Positions 2,237 to 15,301 of a DNA stretch of 18,522 bases are shown here, piece after piece (the stretch's first letter is position 1; the number at the start of each line of letters is the position of its first letter). This DNA comes from Candidatus Magasanikiibacteriota bacterium (GTDB taxonomy: Bacteria > Patescibacteriota > Patescibacteriia > Magasanikbacterales > GWA2-37-8): contig JAPLWP010000013.1 of the NCBI GenBank assembly GCA_026396535.1, forward strand, positions 1 to 18,522, given 5' to 3'. The notes beneath the pieces were generated by a model. It was given only the letters and a program-made list of their open reading frames with translations. It did no database searches and was not told where the DNA came from. A program made the translations under genes and the position numbers.

Positions 2237-2271
2237 TTTTCAGAATTTATAACTTCAAAATAGTTTCAAAC

Positions 2272-2378
2272 AAAAAGACTGACATAAGTGACTTTTTCGC
2301 TTTCCTCGGCCGCGAGGCCTCAGGGATGAAACCGTGGGTTTCATAACCCGCTCAAAAGTAACTTATGTCAGTCTTTTT
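2272..2378 (+). repeat. Structured terminator-nested element, copy 1
   Basis: A perfect 17-bp inverted repeat (2272-2288 with 2362-2378) encloses a 73-base core (2289-2361) shared with elements at 11798 and 15177. The right arm ends in a long T run and the left arm starts with five A, so it can terminate the PBP transcript and probably also ribD from the other strand. Inside the core, ACTTT pairs with AAAGT. A hairpin GGCC-GCGA-GGCC has a GNRA tetraloop, and a hairpin ATGAAACC-GTG-GGTTTCAT follows. Core ends are TGACTTTTTCG and GCTCAAAAGTAA. It lies between convergent genes. Terminator function is inferred from stem plus T run; the core is of unknown nature. Confidence 0.85.
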
Positions 2379-2391
2379 TTTTTCTTTATTT

Positions 2392-3480
2392 TTAGATTCT
2401 TACTCCTTCTATCATCCAGTTGTCGCCGAAATGTTTGATTGAAATATTTTTTAGCTTTAGGGCTTTGCTTACTTTGTCTGTTCCTTTGCCTCCGATTGCG
2501 CTTAGGGATTCTTTGCCGCCGATTATTATCGGGGCGTAGAAAATATAAAATTTATCGGCTAGCTTGGCATCTTGAAAACTACCTTGCAATTCAGCTCCAC
2601 CTTCTACGAACAGGCTGATTATTTTTCTTTTGGTTAATTCTTGTAAAATGATTTTTATTGGAACTTGTTTTTGTTTTAGCACCACCACCTCAATTCCTTT
2701 TTGAACTAGTTGTTTCATTTTTTTAAGGTCGTGCGACGGGGAGGCAAACACCAAAACATTATTATCGCGATATACTTGGGCGTTTATTTTTATCTTTAGT
2801 TCAGCGTCCAAAATTACTCGTAATGGATCGTGATATTTTTTGTTTCTTACTCCTAGATGCGGGTCGTCTTTTAGAACAGTATTAGTACCTACAATTATCG
2901 CTTGATATTGCCCGCGTAGATCCCGAGAAAATTCTCGAGCAGCTTCATTGGTGATCCATTTGGAATCACCGCTGTGGGTCGCTGTGCGGCCATCCAGAGA
3001 ACAAGCGAACTTAATAGCGACAAACGGGCGTTGCTTCTGGTGGAAGCAGAAAAAAGCTTCGTTTAGCTCTTGGGCTTCTTTTTGCAAAACTCCTACTTCT
3101 ACTTGTATGCCGGCAGCCTTTAATTGTTTTATGCCTCGGCCTGAAACTTTTTCATTCGGATCGATTGTACAACAAACCACCCGCTTTATTCCAGCCGCTA
3201 TTATGGCCGGCACACAGGGCGGAGTGTTTTTCCAGATATGAGAACACGGTTCTAGAGTGACATACAGAGTGGCGCCTTTAGGGTTTTCTTTACAATTTTT
3301 AAAAGCCTCTACTTCTGCGTGAGGCCCTTTGTACTTTTTATGATATCCTTGTCCAAGTACTTTCCCATTCTTTACCACTACCGCCGCGACCATCGGATTG
3401 GGATTGGTCTGCCCTCTAGCTTTGGCGGCAAGCCCCAGAGCGAGCGTAAGATATTTTTTATCTTCGTTTGTTATTGCCAT
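2392..3480 (-). CDS. ribD: Bifunctional riboflavin deaminase/reductase RibD
   Basis: Second and third steps of riboflavin synthesis: deamination of the pyrimidine made from GTP, then NADPH-dependent reduction of its ribosyl side chain; cytosolic. The N-terminal deaminase domain (about 1-145) has HAE with zinc ligand His54 and PCSH...TPPC with Cys79 and Cys89. The C-terminal reductase domain (about 150-362) has SLDGRTA, SKWITNEAAR and FVEGGAELQGSF. Length 362 is normal for the fused enzyme. The two zinc cysteines are one residue further apart than in E. coli RibD (PCSHIWKNTPPC against PCSHHGRTPPC). Last gene of a tight run after ribA (1-base gap), so it probably depends on translation and transcription from upstream. 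ATG start follows directly on the ribA stop. Confidence 0.95.
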   Translation of the reverse strand: MAITNEDKKYLTLALGLAAKARGQTNPNPMVAAVVVKNGKVLGQGYHKKYKGPHAEVEAFKNCKENPKGATLYVTLEPCSHIWKNTPPCVPAIIAAGIKRVVCCTIDPNEKVSGRGIKQLKAAGIQVEVGVLQKEAQELNEAFFCFHQKQRPFVAIKFACSLDGRTATHSGDSKWITNEAAREFSRDLRGQYQAIIVGTNTVLKDDPHLGVRNKKYHDPLRVILDAELKIKINAQVYRDNNVLVFASPSHDLKKMKQLVQKGIEVVVLKQKQVPIKIILQELTKRKIISLFVEGGAELQGSFQDAKLADKFYIFYAPIIIGGKESLSAIGGKGTDKVSKALKLKNISIKHFGDNWMIEGVRI

Positions 3481-3481
3481 A

Positions 3482-4078
3482 TTACTTTATTTTTAATTGA
3501 TGGCCCATTTTTTTCTTTTTTATCTGCAGATATGATTTGTTGTATTTATTGGATTTCACTTCTAGAGGAGTTCTTTTTATCACATCTATTCCACCCTCTT
3601 CGAGTTGAATTACTTTGTCTGGATTGTTGGTAATGAGATTTATTTTTCTAATCTTTAAATATTTTAAAATCAAAATTGCAATACTATAATCCCGGGCATC
3701 TTGAGGTAAACCCAGGCCAACATTGGCTTCTACCGTATCCATACCCTGATCTTGTAGAGCGTAGGCCTTTATTTTATTTTCCAGACCAATATCACGGCCT
3801 TCTTGGTTGAGATAAAGCAAGACTCCGCCGGATTTGGCTATTTTTTTTAAACTCAAATCCAACTGTTCACCACAATCACATTTCAAAGAAGCAAAGGTGT
3901 CACCAGTAATACATTTAGAATGCATTCGGACCAAAACCGGCTCTTTTAAAATCTTACCTTTGGTCAAAACCACTTGATTACGATCGTCGATATTAGATTT
4001 AAAAATTGAAATCTGAAAATTACCGTATTTGGTCGGTAAATTAGCTTGAGCAGTTTGTTTTACCTGCAACTTTTTCAT
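3482..4078 (-). CDS. ribA: GTP cyclohydrolase II, stand-alone RibA
   Basis: Opens the GTP branch of riboflavin synthesis, releasing formate and pyrophosphate to give the diaminopyrimidine used by RibD. Zinc ligands Cys56, Cys67 and Cys69 sit in SKCITGDTFASLKCDCG; the catalytic block QEGRDIGLENKIKAYALQ and the nucleotide-binding LITNNPDKV are present. The frame can start at 4114, but that would overlap ribH by 34 bases; the ATG at 4078 gives a 2-base gap and 198 residues, close to the 196 of E. coli RibA, so I chose it. There is no fused RibB (dihydroxybutanone phosphate synthase) domain, unlike the RibBA of many Gram-positives. Lysine-rich C-terminus. Sits between ribH and ribD in the operon. 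Confidence 0.95.
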   Translation of the reverse strand: MKKLQVKQTAQANLPTKYGNFQISIFKSNIDDRNQVVLTKGKILKEPVLVRMHSKCITGDTFASLKCDCGEQLDLSLKKIAKSGGVLLYLNQEGRDIGLENKIKAYALQDQGMDTVEANVGLGLPQDARDYSIAILILKYLKIRKINLITNNPDKVIQLEEGGIDVIKRTPLEVKSNKYNKSYLQIKKKKMGHQLKIK

Positions 4079-4080
4079 AC

Positions 4081-4524
4081 CTAAATTTTGGCGATAGTTT
4101 CGAGAGTTTTCCACGCGGCTTCAGCAGCTTCTATGCCGCGATTGTCTTTTATTTGAGTAGAGCGATCATAAGCATCCTGAATATTATACACCGCCAACAC
4201 TTCAAAAATTACTGGAATTTCAAACTCGACACTAAGCGTCATACAAGCTCGTGCACATTCGTTGGCAATAAGTTCAAAGTGATAGGTTTTGCCTTTGTGG
4301 ATTGCGCCGAAAGTTATAATCGCATCATACACACCTTGTTTGGCGAGCTTTTTTACCAACAAAGGTATTTCAAAACTGCCGGGCACACTCACTATTTTAA
4401 TATTTTCTTTTTTTATCCCTTTTTTCTCCAGAGTCGCTACACAATTTTTCTCTAGATTATTTACTATTTCCTCCCAGAAAGCACCACTAACAATGGCAAT
4501 TTTCAGTTCGTTGGCTGGCTTCAT
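4081..4524 (-). CDS. ribH: 6,7-dimethyl-8-ribityllumazine synthase RibH
   Basis: Condenses the RibD product (after dephosphorylation) with dihydroxybutanone phosphate to form lumazine; the family assembles into pentamers or 60-mer capsids. At 147 residues it is a normal length. Visible signatures: Phe16 in IVSGAFWEE for ring stacking, VPGSFEIPL, GAIHKGKTYHFE with catalytic His82, and IPVIFEVL followed by Arg121 in YDRS for phosphate binding. It deviates from the common GA-TPHFD form (here GKTYHFE) but keeps the His. Ten bases separate it from ribE and two from ribA, consistent with co-transcription. The ATG start agrees with the usual family N-terminus. Confidence 0.95.
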   Translation of the reverse strand: MKPANELKIAIVSGAFWEEIVNNLEKNCVATLEKKGIKKENIKIVSVPGSFEIPLLVKKLAKQGVYDAIITFGAIHKGKTYHFELIANECARACMTLSVEFEIPVIFEVLAVYNIQDAYDRSTQIKDNRGIEAAEAAWKTLETIAKI

Positions 4525-4534
4525 AAAAATAGGG

Positions 4535-5110
4535 TTATTTTAAAAACTTTTTAATATATTTAGCGACCACATCTATCTCAATATTTATTTTATCGCCGAG
4601 TTTAATATTTTTAAGATTGGTGTTTTGCCAAGTATGAGGAATTACAGCGATAACAAAACTTTTACTTTTTAATTTTGCGATAGTCAAAGAAATACCATTC
4701 AGAGCAATAGAGCCTTTTTCTACCAAAAATCTCATCGTATCTTTTTCGACTGAGATTTCTATCTCTCTACTATTTCCTTGTTTTTTGATTTCTTTTATTT
4801 CCCCAATTCCATCCACATGCCCTTGTACCAAATGACCAGACAAAAATGTCTGCATAGTAAGCGACATATCCAAGTTTAACTCTTCACCAATTATAACATC
4901 ACCCAAATTACTTCTTTTAAGAGTTTCCGGAACCGCTGAAAAAGACAGTTTGTCTTTCGTTTTCTTTTCCACCGTCAGACATACCCCATTTACAGCAATA
5001 CTATCGCCAATTTTTGTTTTGGAGACAAATTTAGGATCTGTTTGCATCACAAACACACCTTGTTTGACTGAAAATAACTTAGCAGTATGAGTAATTATTC
5101 CAGTAAACAT
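4535..5110 (-). CDS. ribE: Riboflavin synthase alpha chain
   Basis: Catalyses dismutation of two lumazine molecules into riboflavin and the pyrimidine substrate of RibH. It begins with the hallmark MFTGII and contains two lumazine-binding barrels: repeat 1 with VNGVCLTV, repeat 2 with LNGISLTI, joined by SGHLVQGHVDG; IPHTWQNTNL lies near the C-terminus. 191 residues is slightly short of the usual 200-215. It starts 3 bases after the dnaN stop (-), so the riboflavin genes appear to be read from the dnaN transcript; I see no separate promoter or FMN riboswitch. The symbol follows Bacillus usage; the same enzyme is called ribC in E. coli. Confidence 0.95.
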   Translation of the reverse strand: MFTGIITHTAKLFSVKQGVFVMQTDPKFVSKTKIGDSIAVNGVCLTVEKKTKDKLSFSAVPETLKRSNLGDVIIGEELNLDMSLTMQTFLSGHLVQGHVDGIGEIKEIKKQGNSREIEISVEKDTMRFLVEKGSIALNGISLTIAKLKSKSFVIAVIPHTWQNTNLKNIKLGDKINIEIDVVAKYIKKFLK

Positions 5111-5113
5111 AAA

Positions 5114-6238
5114 TTACTGACGTATAGGCATGATGATGTATAAGAAGTTTGGATCGTTGGTCGGAGTTACCAAACAAGGACTATCAGCGTTGATGATTTT
5201 GAAGACCGCACTTTCAGATTTCAAATTATTTAGACCGTCCAAGACATAACGGTGGTTTAAAGTAATTTTATTATCATCACCTTTGATATCAGCTACAACC
5301 TCAGAATTATATTCACCGGTCTGAGATGAAATAGAAGCGAGTTTTACCACACCTTCTTTACCTTCAAACGAACAATTAATAGCATTTACGCCAGTAGTAG
5401 TGAACAAACTAGCAGTTTTTATTTCTTTAGTCATTTTTTCAGTATCGAGAGTAGCTGTGGTTTTAAATTCTTTAGGAATAATCTGGGCATAATCCGGATA
5501 ATTTCCTTCAACCAAACGTGATACCAATTGAGTATTACCAAAATGAACAGCAATCTGATTTTCTCCAACCAAAAAGCGAACATTCTTTTCACCATCTTCA
5601 GTTTCCACCAAAGACAAGATACGAATGATCTCAGAGGTAGTACGACCAGGCACTATAATCTTGAATTCACCCTCTCCTTGCTTGATAGCGACTCTTTTTT
5701 CAGCTAAACGATAACTATCCGTAGCAGCCAATACCAAACCGGCGTAGTAAGAAGTATTAAAACCAAAATACATACCAGATAATTCTGGGCGGATTTCTGA
5801 TTTGGCTAAAGAAGACACTGTTTGCCCCATACCTGTTTTGAGTTCATCCACTGCAAACAAGAATCCAGTACCAGTATGAACAGAAGGGATCACTGGGAAT
5901 TCGTCAGCAGGGGAGCCTTTTATTTTTGTAGAAGACTTTCCACAGTTTATCACCAATTCATTGTCTTTGAGTTCCATCTCAATCTTTTCTTCAGACAACA
6001 ATCCGACAAACTCGGTCAAAGTACGAGCCGGTACTGTGAAAGATCCTGGTTCGTCCACTTTGGAACGAACATGGACCACTATCGCGAGTTCAAGATTGGT
6101 TGCAATGATTTCTGTTTTTTGGTCATCGGCTTTGATCAACACATTTCCAAGTATCGGTAAATTCACACTCTTGTTGGCGATGCCTCCGACTATCGATAAA
6201 GCTTTGGACAAATTCTCCTTCGTACAGGTTATTTTCAT
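5114..6238 (-). CDS. dnaN: DNA polymerase III sliding clamp (beta subunit)
   Basis: Ring-forming processivity factor that tethers the replicative polymerase to DNA. The 374 residues fit three clamp domains; recognisable blocks are LPILGNVLI, ATNLELAI, TVPARTLTE, GSPADEFPVI, ATDSYRLAEKR, EGNYPDYAQIIP and the C-terminal LVTPTNDPNFLYIIMPIR that forms the binding pocket for clamp-interacting peptides. It follows dnaA on the same strand across the oriC-like gap. Upstream of the ATG I see no Shine-Dalgarno sequence. ribE begins 3 bases after its stop, an unusual operon partner. Confidence 0.97.
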   Translation of the reverse strand: MKITCTKENLSKALSIVGGIANKSVNLPILGNVLIKADDQKTEIIATNLELAIVVHVRSKVDEPGSFTVPARTLTEFVGLLSEEKIEMELKDNELVINCGKSSTKIKGSPADEFPVIPSVHTGTGFLFAVDELKTGMGQTVSSLAKSEIRPELSGMYFGFNTSYYAGLVLAATDSYRLAEKRVAIKQGEGEFKIIVPGRTTSEIIRILSLVETEDGEKNVRFLVGENQIAVHFGNTQLVSRLVEGNYPDYAQIIPKEFKTTATLDTEKMTKEIKTASLFTTTGVNAINCSFEGKEGVVKLASISSQTGEYNSEVVADIKGDDNKITLNHRYVLDGLNNLKSESAVFKIINADSPCLVTPTNDPNFLYIIMPIRQ

Positions 6239-6254
6239 ATTGGGTGGTGTATAA

Positions 6255-6308
6255 GTGTTTTATATATAAATATAGTAATACTAATAAGGGTGGGGACAGA
6301 GTGAATAA
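6255..6308 (+). other. DnaA-trio / basal unwinding-like module
   Basis: Reading the plus strand: an AT-rich run (6255-6272), then five triplets TAG TAA TAC TAA TAA (6273-6287), a G cluster GGGTGGGG (6288-6295), four bases, and the DnaA-box-like AGTGAATAA (6300-6308). In the Bacillus origin the DnaA-trio strand has this order and polarity: trio repeats, GC stretch, then a box in the TGTGNATAA orientation. DnaA loaded on the box would extend along the trios and open DNA toward dnaN. The match is architectural and by eye. Confidence 0.55.
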
Positions 6309-6443
6309 GTCGTTATTTTGTCTAGTCTCAGCAAAATTTTTTGTTAATAAGTTTTATCTGAAAAGTTGGTAAAGTGGGGATGAAAACAGTGGAAAACTTT
6401 TTTAATTTTTTTATGTTGATAACTCGGCACTTTATTCAGGTGG

Positions 6444-6462
6444 TGTGAACAAGTTGTTCACA
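6444..6462. promoter_or_regulatory. Perfect 19-bp palindrome of two opposed DnaA-like boxes
   Basis: TGTGAACAAGTTGTTCACA: two 9-base arms around one central G, each arm one mismatch from the DnaA box consensus (TTGTTCACA against TTATNCACA). A third box-like site follows at 6466-6474. It may be a DnaA pair in the origin or the operator of another regulator. Confidence 0.6.
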
Positions 6463-6499
6463 TAAATATTCACAGTGCTTAGCCAAGAAATAAAACTAT

Positions 6500-7813
6500 T
6501 TATATATTATTTATGTACAAACGTTGTCGAATTAACTCTACTTCTTGTTTGAGTTTTAGTTCGTTCTCTACTTCTTTGGAAATCTTTTCATTGGCATGCA
6601 TAGCGGTGGTATGGTCGCGACCGCCGAGCTCATCACCGATAGCTGGAAAAGACATTTTAAGATCGTTGCGTAGTAGATACATAATAACTTGGCGTGGGAA
6701 AGAAAGCTTCTTCTCACGGCTTTTTCCACAGACATCCTCAAAGCTCGAGAGTAATGATTTCACAGACTCTTGGGTCGGAACCATGTTTTTTAATTGATGG
6801 TAGGCAATAATCTTGTTTAATGCACCTTCGAGTTCGCGGATATTACTCTGTACTATAGTAGCGACGGTGTGCAATATCTTAGTTTCTAGAGGAAAATTCT
6901 TTTCATGACATTTTTTATCTAGAATAGCAGCGCGAGTTTCAAAGTCAGGTGCGGTGACATCCACAATCATACCCCATTCAAAGCGGGATTTGAGACGATC
7001 TTCTAAAGCCGGAATAGCTTTTGGTGGACGATCCGAAGTGAGAATAACTTGTTTGTTGGCTTGGTGAAGCTCGTTGAAAGTGTGGAAGAACGATTCTTGA
7101 GAAGCGTCTTTGCCAGCAATAAATTGAATATCATCAATAAGCAAAGCATCAATAAGGCGGTAGCGATTTTGGAAATCACGAGAGCTGCCAGTGCGTAGTG
7201 AGGTAATAAAATCATTGGTAAACTTCTCAGCACTTACATACATAATGTTGGTCTGAGGGTTTTTACGCAGTAATTCATTGGCTACGGCCTGTAAAAGATG
7301 GGTTTTGCCCAAACCTACACCACCATATATAAATAGAGGGTTGTAGGATTCGCCAGGTCTGTCTGCTACGGCTTTGGCCGCAGTAAAAGCTAATTCAGAG
7401 CCTTTGCCGACCACAAAATTATCAAAAGTATATTTAGGATTGATGCTAAATCCAGGGGAGATTAAAGGTGTGGACTGGGAGGCGGTGGAAAAGCTGACTT
7501 TTTCCTCCTGGTGGGCTTGAGGTGGAGTAATTGAGGTGTTTATAGTCAATTCAGTAACATTTTTGATATTTTCGATCTTGTATTCTAGTTTACGAATTGG
7601 CAAAGAAGTGATTCTTTCAAGGGATTGAATGATCTGTTGGTGGTGTTTTTTTTCAATCCAGGCTTGGTTGAAAGTATTTGGTACGCAAAGTACTACGTGG
7701 CTTTCTTGGAAAGAAACAATGCCGGTATTTTTGAACCAAGTATTGAAATTAGCCTTGGAAATGTTCAACTCTAGCTCGGAAAGGACAGCTTGCCAGATTT
7801 CGTTATTAGTCAT
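6500..7813 (-). CDS. dnaA: Chromosomal replication initiator protein DnaA
   Basis: AAA+ ATPase that binds DnaA boxes, opens oriC and helps load the helicase; also a transcription regulator. Order: domain I (about 1-80, IWQAVLSELELNIS and FNTWF), a short linker to about 120, AAA+ domain with Walker A GGVGLGKT (164-171), Walker B LLIDDIQF around Asp226-Asp227, Arg-rich LEDRLKSRFEWG, and domain IV with the box-binding signature GGRDHTTAMHANEKI from 397. At 437 residues it has a short domain II. The ATG at 7813 matches the usual N-terminus; no Shine-Dalgarno is visible in the ~23-base predicted leader. Palindrome and DnaA boxes upstream suggest autoregulation. Confidence 0.98.
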   Translation of the reverse strand: MTNNEIWQAVLSELELNISKANFNTWFKNTGIVSFQESHVVLCVPNTFNQAWIEKKHHQQIIQSLERITSLPIRKLEYKIENIKNVTELTINTSITPPQAHQEEKVSFSTASQSTPLISPGFSINPKYTFDNFVVGKGSELAFTAAKAVADRPGESYNPLFIYGGVGLGKTHLLQAVANELLRKNPQTNIMYVSAEKFTNDFITSLRTGSSRDFQNRYRLIDALLIDDIQFIAGKDASQESFFHTFNELHQANKQVILTSDRPPKAIPALEDRLKSRFEWGMIVDVTAPDFETRAAILDKKCHEKNFPLETKILHTVATIVQSNIRELEGALNKIIAYHQLKNMVPTQESVKSLLSSFEDVCGKSREKKLSFPRQVIMYLLRNDLKMSFPAIGDELGGRDHTTAMHANEKISKEVENELKLKQEVELIRQRLYINNI

Positions 7814-8208: not shown

Positions 8209-8601
8209 ATGTATAAGAAAGACAATCATCTCACCAAAGTTCGGGATTTTAACTTGATTTTGAAGCACGGCATCTGGCATAATGGCCGTTTTTTGAGTTT
8301 GCGTGTGCTAGAATTAGCCAAAAATGAACAATATTTTCCACCCACAGCTGATGTGGATAAGTTCAAAAAACAGCTAAAGTTAGCGATAAATGTGGGCTTA
8401 AAGGTGTCTAAAAAGGCAGTTATCCGCAATCGAGCCAAACGTCAGATTCGCGAGGTAGTGCGCCTGATTATGCAGACCGATGGTATAAAAGATGGGTATT
8501 ATCTATTTTTCATTGCCAAGCCGGAAATCAAAGAGAAAGAATATGCTGAGATTAGCGAAGAAATAAAAGTATTATTACAGCGCGCGAAAGTGTTTGTGTA
8601 G
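8209..8601 (+). CDS. rnpA: Ribonuclease P protein component
   Basis: Basic protein subunit that binds the RNase P RNA and helps process tRNA 5' leaders. The family signature is seen as KKAVIRNRAKRQIREVVR at about 68-85, including the RNR core, and the N-terminal RDFNLILKHG segment fits. 130 residues is within the usual 110-135. It is second in the rpmH-rnpA-yidD run, behind an attenuator-like hairpin. A weak AAGG lies 5-8 bases before the ATG. The start is supported by the position of the conserved RDF block. Confidence 0.93.
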   Translation: MYKKDNHLTKVRDFNLILKHGIWHNGRFLSLRVLELAKNEQYFPPTADVDKFKKQLKLAINVGLKVSKKAVIRNRAKRQIREVVRLIMQTDGIKDGYYLFFIAKPEIKEKEYAEISEEIKVLLQRAKVFV

Positions 8602-8674
8602 TTTTTTTGTTTTTCAAAATTTTGTTTTAGAATAAATAAAAAAAATATTTTGAAAGATAAAATAAATATTCAAA

Positions 8675-11797: not shown

Positions 11798-11902
11798 AAA
11801 AAAACACCGGGAACAGTTACCTTTGAGCGGGTTATGAGGCCCACGGCCGATTCCCTGAGGCTTCGCAGCCGAGGAAAGCGAAAAGGTTACTGTTACCGGT
11901 GT
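11798..11902 (-). repeat. Structured terminator-nested element, copy 2
   Basis: Minus-strand orientation, directly 3' of hppA. Outer arms 11890-11902 and 11804-11816 pair at 12 of 13 positions and end in a T7 run on the minus strand (A run 11798-11804). The 73-base core (11817-11889) matches copies 1 and 3. Differences are compensated: the inner stem is ACCTTT/AAAGGT here instead of ACTTTT/AAAAGT, and the tetraloop hairpin is GGCT-GCGA-AGCC. Likely terminator of hppA. Confidence 0.85.
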
Positions 11903-11914
11903 GTTAGAAAGATA

Positions 11915-15103: not shown

Positions 15104-15175
15104 GGTACCGTCGTCAAGCAGTAAGACCAGGGTCTGCAAAACCCTTATGCGTGGGTGCAATTCCCACCGGTACCT
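15104..15175 (+). tRNA. tRNA-Cys (GCA)
   Basis: Cloverleaf by hand: acceptor GGTACCG/CGGTACC (7 bp); D stem GTC/GAC; anticodon stem AGGGT/ACCCT with loop CTGCAAA, anticodon GCA at 15136-15138; T stem GTGGG/CCCAC with loop TGCAATT. Discriminator U at 15175 is the main CysRS identity base, confirming Cys. The 3' CCA is not encoded. G15-C48, U8-A14 and G19-C56 are kept, but position 18 is A and position 55 is G, replacing the near-universal G18-U55 elbow pair. It is followed after one base by element copy 3, its likely terminator. Confidence 0.93.
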
Positions 15176-15176
15176 C

Positions 15177-15299
15177 AAAAATAAAACACCACACATATAG
15201 TGACTTTTTCGTTTTCCTCGCCCTGCGAAGGGCTCAGGGAATCGGCCGCGGGCCTCATAACCCGCTCAAAAGTAACTATATGTGTGGTGTTTTATTTTT
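15177..15299 (+). repeat. Structured terminator-nested element, copy 3 (longest arms)
   Basis: Perfect 24-bp outer arms (15177-15200 with 15276-15299) enclose a 75-base core (15201-15275). The core has the same ends as copies 1 and 2 (TGACTTTTTCG, GCTCAAAAGTAA). Its hairpin is GCCCT-GCGA-AGGGC, extended relative to the other copies but with the same tetraloop. GCGGG/CCCGC around CCTCATAA closes the 3' half. It lies right after tRNA-Cys and ends in a T-rich run, so it should terminate the tRNA/M23 transcript before polA. Confidence 0.88.
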
Positions 15300-15301
15300 G
15301 G

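Follow-up and report, generated by a model that had tools for sequence, protein, structure and literature searches.

A family of dispersed palindromic elements with a conserved, covarying three-way-junction head in Candidatus Magasanikiibacteriota

Results

The window, a stretch of 18,522 nucleotides from a Candidatus Magasanikiibacteriota bacterium (contig JAPLWP010000013.1), carries three members of a family of dispersed elements. These elements keep a common, covarying fold, show a strand asymmetry in the pairing of their outer stem (P1), are present or absent as whole units at the same sites of related genomes, and differ between species by swaps of core class and core orientation. The reading that we tentatively favour, while holding it for somewhat less than an even chance, is that of REP/MITE-like dispersed palindromic DNA elements whose head is a three-way junction and which serve as terminators in this genus. 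Each unit, about 90-130 bp in size, is an inverted repeat (P1), long and perfect or nearly so, with a conserved three-way junction (GC:GC, P2, P3) as its cap. Units would spread and recombine as DNA, probably via the hairpin formed by a single reverse strand, and would land or persist at the 3' ends of genes. Within the genus, arms with A/T runs would turn them into intrinsic terminators, often bidirectional ones, which replace ordinary terminators.

To our knowledge, repetitive and non-coding elements are poorly known in Patescibacteria, and the genomes of this group are considered too reduced to carry such repeats. Compensatory changes are abundant in the family, its pairing is biased to one strand and its units vary in presence between genomes, which makes it a direct test case for RNA selection versus palindrome maintenance at the DNA level. 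It may also point to a novel mechanism of spreading.

Three structured elements in the window

The window encodes a penicillin-binding protein (PBP), ribD, GTP cyclohydrolase II, ribH, ribE, dnaN, dnaA, rnpA, yidD, tig, hppA, a LysM/M23 peptidase, tRNA-Cys and polA, with the names of the protein genes assigned by us from Pfam matches. Three structured elements had been proposed here by the initial annotation, and long inverted arms together with cores were indeed found at all three sites, beyond chance when compared to shuffled sequences (Table 1). Core lengths were 57, 57 and 59 nt for elements 1, 2 and 3, with fold z-scores against shuffles of -7.5, -5.4 and -11.1, respectively. A degenerate core pattern had 2 exact matches in the window, with 0.00 expected from shuffles, and the third copy was one base off. 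Each of the three copies has a stem and a following T run, oriented in the same sense as the gene upstream, which is the penicillin-binding protein gene for element 1, the H+-pyrophosphatase gene for element 2 and tRNA-Cys for element 3.

Table 1. Coordinates of the elements and of one core-less site in the window.
Feature	Position	Strand	Arms	Core	Covariance model (bits)	Site or description
Element 1	2268..2382	+	2268-2296 / 2354-2382	2297-2353	92.4	penicillin-binding protein gene (+) and ribD (-), convergent neighbours
Element 2	11801..11905	-	11882-11905 / 11801-11824	11825-11881	81.6	flanked by hppA and tig, both on -
Element 3	15176..15300	+	15176-15208 / 15268-15300	15209-15267	74.4	flanked by tRNA-Cys and polA
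Element 3, reverse strand	15201..15275	-				better-kept pairing of the family: three-way junction, P2 hairpin, P3 hairpin (family evidence)
Core-less site	8593..8674	+				rnpA-yidD; AT-rich inverted repeat instead in the source genome

That no described family matches, as had been stated from the sequence, agreed with Rfam: the three window elements gave no match at the gathering score or up to an E value of 5, and a known RNA family was rejected for them. Over the whole window a tRNA at 15104-15175 was the sole Rfam match. A literature search without full texts yielded no description of such an element.

Apart from the elements, genes for riboflavin synthesis (ribD, GTP cyclohydrolase II, ribH, ribE) form a cluster at 2392-7813, immediately downstream of dnaA/dnaN, which is unusual in so reduced a genome. 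No DHBP synthase domain was seen in this cluster by Pfam matches.

Copies in the source genome and its relatives

The suggestion that further copies should occur in this genome and in relatives was borne out by a covariance model built from 54 aligned copies. The model matched 14 of 192 genomes (source genome included) with 1-21 matches each in a patchy distribution, leaving 178 genomes without a match. Since no more than 22 candidates per genome were scored among the 192 genomes, and no more than 11 in a further set of 379, high copy numbers are lower bounds. The genus is represented by five genomes (G000, the source genome, to G004), which had 8, 10, at least 17, at least 21 and 10 matches, mostly intergenic. 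The 8 copies of the source genome include 5 outside the window, on contigs C29, C88, C139 (two) and C142. Beyond the genus, G009 had 8, G013 12 and G018 at least 19 matches, and single matches occurred in G024, G039, G050, G080, G175 and G180. Among the 379 genomes, drawn across the phylum, three matched, namely the source genome, G039 again and G282, the copy of the latter with a divergent core. A scan with the core pattern gave 44 matching stretches, 40 of them named Ca. Magasanikbacteria. One Tagabacteria and one Giovannonibacteria contig had a single match each with the outer stem present, while a match in Cyanobacteria (L070) is doubtful, as no outer stem was seen by eye. The strict pattern had 0 matches in the viral_contigs set, and carriage by viruses was rejected on this basis.

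The G180 match (E 0.0018) is weak, looks like chance and was left out of the arm counts. The contig of the G175 copy has flanks 99.8-100% identical to those of G018 (L126 versus L131) with differing family assignments, so that this copy is probably the G018 organism counted twice through mis-binning; it was kept within the 110-copy set nevertheless. These 110 copies were obtained from 113 model matches by dropping L145 (E 0.0021), a minus-strand match in L108 (E 0.0053) and L203, where the contig end cuts the copy. For counts per position, L132:4670 and L127 were also excluded, as their arms were out of register, and 108 copies were left.

Two further observations concern the form of the copies. 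L146 (G080) and L147 (G039) represent a divergent subfamily, in which P2 is of another kind and the arms of 20-24 bp pair perfectly. In G013, three pairs of adjacent elements were found (L109, L112, L116), in direct orientation once and inverted twice; the model matches of a pair are separated by 21-47 bases.

A conserved fold with strong covariation

On the strand taken by the initial annotation, here called the strand read (its complement being the reverse strand), the layout is P1 - TTTTC - GC - P2 - GG - P3, followed by AACCC - GC - TC - AAAA - P1', with variable P1 arms. P2 falls into two classes, one fully paired and the other interrupted by a CCTC/TCAG-type internal loop. The GCGA tetraloop on top of P2, initially described as invariant, was found in just 42 of 54 family rows; GTGA occurred in 3, ATGA, GCGT and GCTG in 1 each, and loops of other lengths in 6.

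Compensating changes inside the fold, noted before for the three window copies, were strongly evident in the 54-copy alignment. Changes on both sides were found in 27 of 31 pairs (21.1 in shuffles), 82.1% of cells were paired compared to 59.6%, and double-change cells numbered 380 compared to 123.7. The covariation score of 0.526 versus 0.138 in shuffles was reached by 0 of 500 shuffles, which keep the relatedness among the copies, and structures slid along the alignment scored at most 0.172. The number of further pair types was less extreme (81 versus 73.6, attained in 12 of 500 shuffles). Because covariation is this strong, the fold is a kept one.

Gene context and T runs

The original description of the elements as lying 3' of a gene, in its sense orientation and with a T run, holds for all three window copies; across the family, sense orientation and T run are not general. 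Using the longest open reading frames as neighbour genes, without a gene finder, 94 of 110 copies were located 3' of one or both neighbours, and another 9 lay between divergent genes. The contexts were 41 times >E>>, 27 times >E><, 23 times <E><, 9 times divergent and 10 times other. A fixed orientation to a served gene was not observed, given the 41 >E>> and 23 <E>< copies and flips at orthologous sites. T runs of at least 4 were present at either end in 47 of 65 copies within the genus and in 8 of 43 outside, and at both ends in 33 of 65 and 1 of 43 copies, respectively.

Termination is a plausible use of the elements within the genus, as judged from these runs. In G018, copies were found in the rpsB-tsf and rpmE-prfA intergenic regions (we named these genes from their translations), positions at which termination would be unexpected. 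In line with the initial annotation, a host RNA module could act at the 3' ends of mRNAs, combining a terminator with a protein-binding head, the three-way junction, which would control termination or mRNA stability. It would account for the preference for gene 3' ends, with few copies between divergent genes, and for the T runs within the genus. We consider such a module possible, though rather unlikely, since orientation to genes varies and flips, T runs are scarce outside the genus, and the wobble pairs described below oppose the sense strand.

The reverse strand pairs better

On the strand read, the P1 arms of the 110 copies contained 2528 Watson-Crick pairs, 122 A.C, 29 G.U and 83 other combinations. 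For the inner 15 pairs of 108 copies A.C outnumbered G.U by 113 to 13. Positions 5-7 were then excluded because conserved A bases of the 3' arm with drifting partners give part of this excess, and 52 A.C versus 11 G.U were left; for pairs 8-14 the numbers were 27 and 5. Beyond pair 15 the asymmetry was gone (A.C 9, G.U 16). Counted per copy, an excess of A.C was found in 69 and of G.U in 4 copies, with 35 ties. The A.C excess was present alike in >E>>, >E>< and <E>< sites and had the same sign in 8 of 8 multi-copy genomes, where it rests on 1 pair in G004 and 3 in G000. As a control, 109 ordinary terminator-like hairpins from 62 stretches of the genomes studied were counted in gene sense and gave 64 G.U versus 27 A.C. 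A pair read as A.C becomes G.U (or G.T) when the complement is read, so that the pairing tolerated here belongs to the reverse strand. There, G.U makes up 122 of 2762 P1 pairs (4.4%), equal to the control terminators (64 of 1452).

The loops and the energy of the whole hairpin favour the same strand. A TC/TC mismatch conserved in 48 of 54 rows reads as tandem G.A on the reverse strand, where at family level these tandem G.A pairs adjoin GC:GC of the three-way junction, and the class-A loop of P2 reads C-G, U.G, G.A, A.G. Over the whole hairpin (model span), RNA parameters predicted the reverse strand to be more stable in 100 of 110 copies, and DNA parameters did so in 87 of 110. When the core was folded with 5 bp of stem, RNA parameters preferred the reverse strand slightly (60 versus 45 copies), while DNA parameters pointed in the opposite direction (38 versus 58). 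P2 and P3 outside the class-A loop showed no asymmetry (A.C 13, G.U 15); a third P3 pair, at columns 48-75 and seemingly in favour of the reverse strand, was set aside as column 48 pairs with column 27 in P2. Among the window copies the reverse strand was predicted to be more stable in 2 of 3, and for element 3 alone the + strand (-67.6 kcal/mol versus -65.2 kcal/mol on the - strand).

The flanks of the units in G000-G004 were also seen to share features: a C precedes the arms (66%) and T.T follows (72% and 67%), with many cases of TTTC...TCT, which on the reverse strand could provide another pair of G.A steps.

Of the selected RNA fold that had been postulated initially, the kept and covarying fold thus stands. 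Its assignment as an RNA module to the sense strand of the upstream gene is not supported in this form, as wobble, loops and whole-hairpin energy point to the reverse strand: even in >E>> sites A.C exceeded G.U by 42 to 10 (three P1 zones) against the sense strand, and orientation varies. The 4.4% share of G.U fits an RNA of the reverse strand equally well, as would the tandem G.A pairs, conserved unpaired core bases and variable stem. A trans-acting small RNA family transcribed from this strand, with one gene per copy, is nevertheless unlikely. The reverse strand had no consistent promoter (mean excess over shuffles 0.34, se 0.22, 108 copies), at the 41 >E>> sites both neighbours would be transcribed in the direction opposite to such an RNA, and its transcription would be head-on to replication for most scored copies. 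On the strand read, the promoter score exceeded shuffles by 0.98 on average (se 0.23) at no fixed position, and a dedicated promoter was rejected on both counts.

Regarding replication, the strand read coincided with the leading strand for 47 of the 66 copies scored (p 0.0008, the copies being not independent of each other), with 9 more ambiguous; the leading strand was deduced from the third-position GC skew of neighbouring genes, covering 75 of 110 copies and none from G003. Leading to lagging counts were 7:1 in G009, 4:0 in four single-copy genomes, 8:2 in G013, 6:1 in G001, 7:3 in G002 and 2:1 in G000, with a weak bias in G018 (8:6) and none in G004 (5:5). The window includes dnaA and agrees gene by gene with its counterpart in G004; with oriC placed between dnaA and rnpA there, the bias falls to 45:21 (counted by hand; p 0.004). 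The better-pairing strand would mostly be the leading-strand template and least exposed there, which is suggestive only. Integron attC sites show a similar replication-orientation bias.

Arms change in pairs

Paired arm lengths across the family were 10-59 bp, the longest being 49-59 bp. The outer arms had been called unrelated in sequence yet self-complementary. Simply unrelated they are not, as pairs 8-21 of the 5' arm were alike beyond shuffles in G003 (0.47 versus 0.31) and G013 (0.49 versus 0.28), and hardly so in G018 (0.31 versus 0.27). Pooled sets, which include orthologues, gave 0.45 versus 0.29 for G000 with G004 and 0.38 versus 0.35 for G001 with G002.

In 15 orthologous comparisons, some with reused copies and all with letters paired without gaps, 106 pairs had changed on both sides and were still Watson-Crick, 23 had changed on one side, 269 were unchanged, and 10 had changed on both sides and were unpaired; in the most diverged comparisons the arms are perhaps not homologous letter by letter. 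The ratio of 106 double to 23 single changes means that arm pairing is kept as letters turn over, with few intermediates, which is what a host RNA module would also maintain at orthologous sites. Either strong selection or arm-to-arm copying at the DNA level would give this double-change pattern. In its pure form, the latter describes a self-perfecting quasi-palindrome, in which template switching during replication copies one arm onto the other and creates complementarity without selection. The dominance of double changes, the arms of up to 49-59 bp and their extension into coding ends at rnpA-yidD would all follow from such copying. Conserved core bases, covarying P2 and P3 and the strand-specific A.C excess are left unexplained by it, and we regard it as improbable.

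Gain, loss and flipping at the same sites

At hppA-tig, the source genome has a class-A core and G004 a class-B core in related arms, whereas in G002 and G003 the site is occupied by an ordinary hairpin followed by a T run, and in G001 the spacer consists of only eight bases. Ordinary terminators, identified by eye, replace the element in relatives at hppA-tig, at the PBP 3' end and at tRNA-polA, a point in favour of a host RNA module. At rnpA-yidD, core-less in the window, G001, G002 and G004 have an element. A flipped core within related arms was found in G001 L185 versus G002 L193. G001 L181 and G003 L154 likewise have a flipped core compared to G004 L172, but their arms differ from it, which leaves room for a second insertion. 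Units missing together with their arms in relatives comprise at least two copies of G002 L197, that of G002 L201 and that of G001 L182. At these empty sites, compared by eye between diverged genomes, no clear target duplication was found. Several sites are common across the genus with intact cores, which host selection would also give.

Empty sites, terminator replacements, flipped cores, class swaps, patchy spread and the adjacent pairs of G013 suggest mobility-like behaviour, as far as genome comparison can tell. The family behaves more like a DNA repeat that is gained, lost and flipped than like an ordinary signal of mRNA tails.

Of the mobility enzymes searched for, none tracked the elements. 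The Y1 transposase domain PF01797 had 0 matches in the seven element-rich genomes searched (G000-G004, G009, G013) and matches in 8 of 24 genomes searched overall, a set without G018 and G024; mobility of the RAYT/IS200 type was rejected. Reverse transcriptase (PF00078) was found in 16 of 25 genomes and was absent from G000, G009 and G024, and retro-mobility was likewise rejected. Tyrosine recombinases (PF00589, at family level) had one match each in G001-G004, G009, G018 and G024, two in G013 and none in G000, an incomplete genome; with usually one per element genome, integrase-driven cassettes were discarded. A new kind of mobile palindrome, whose conserved cap moves and acts as folded single-stranded DNA, recognised by an enzyme that belongs to none of the known hairpin-transposase families, and whose arms are re-copied from one another at each site, seems quite unlikely to us. 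If true, re-copying of the arms would give every copy its own near-perfect stem.

Comparison with known systems

Dispersed palindromes are in themselves a familiar kind of repeat. With structured RNAs in Rfam the family shares a conserved core with covarying helices, without a match for the window copies. REP/BIME elements, associated with RAYT (Y1) transposases, are short imperfect intergenic palindromes in many copies, found at gene 3' ends singly or as inverted pairs, and usable as terminators or mRNA stabilisers. Our family resembles them as short palindromic repeats dispersed in many copies between genes. It differs by longer arms that are copy-specific yet complementary, by the conserved three-way-junction head, and by the absence of a Y1 transposase from all seven element-rich genomes searched. 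Unlike MITEs of DDE transposases, it has no terminal inverted repeats common to the copies, as the arms differ.

The attC site of integrons is an imperfect palindrome of which the bottom strand folds and acts, with an orientation biased by replication. One favoured strand in a palindrome and the bias in replication orientation are shared; however, our elements are dispersed singly or at most as adjacent pairs (G013) instead of tandem cassette arrays, and their conserved part is the tip, not the base. The intrinsic terminators of these genomes are similar in position and, within the genus, in the succession of A run, stem and T run. The 109 control terminators have stems of 13 bp on average and of 38 bp at most, with G.U above A.C, whereas the family has arms of 10-59 bp, A.C above G.U and a conserved head.
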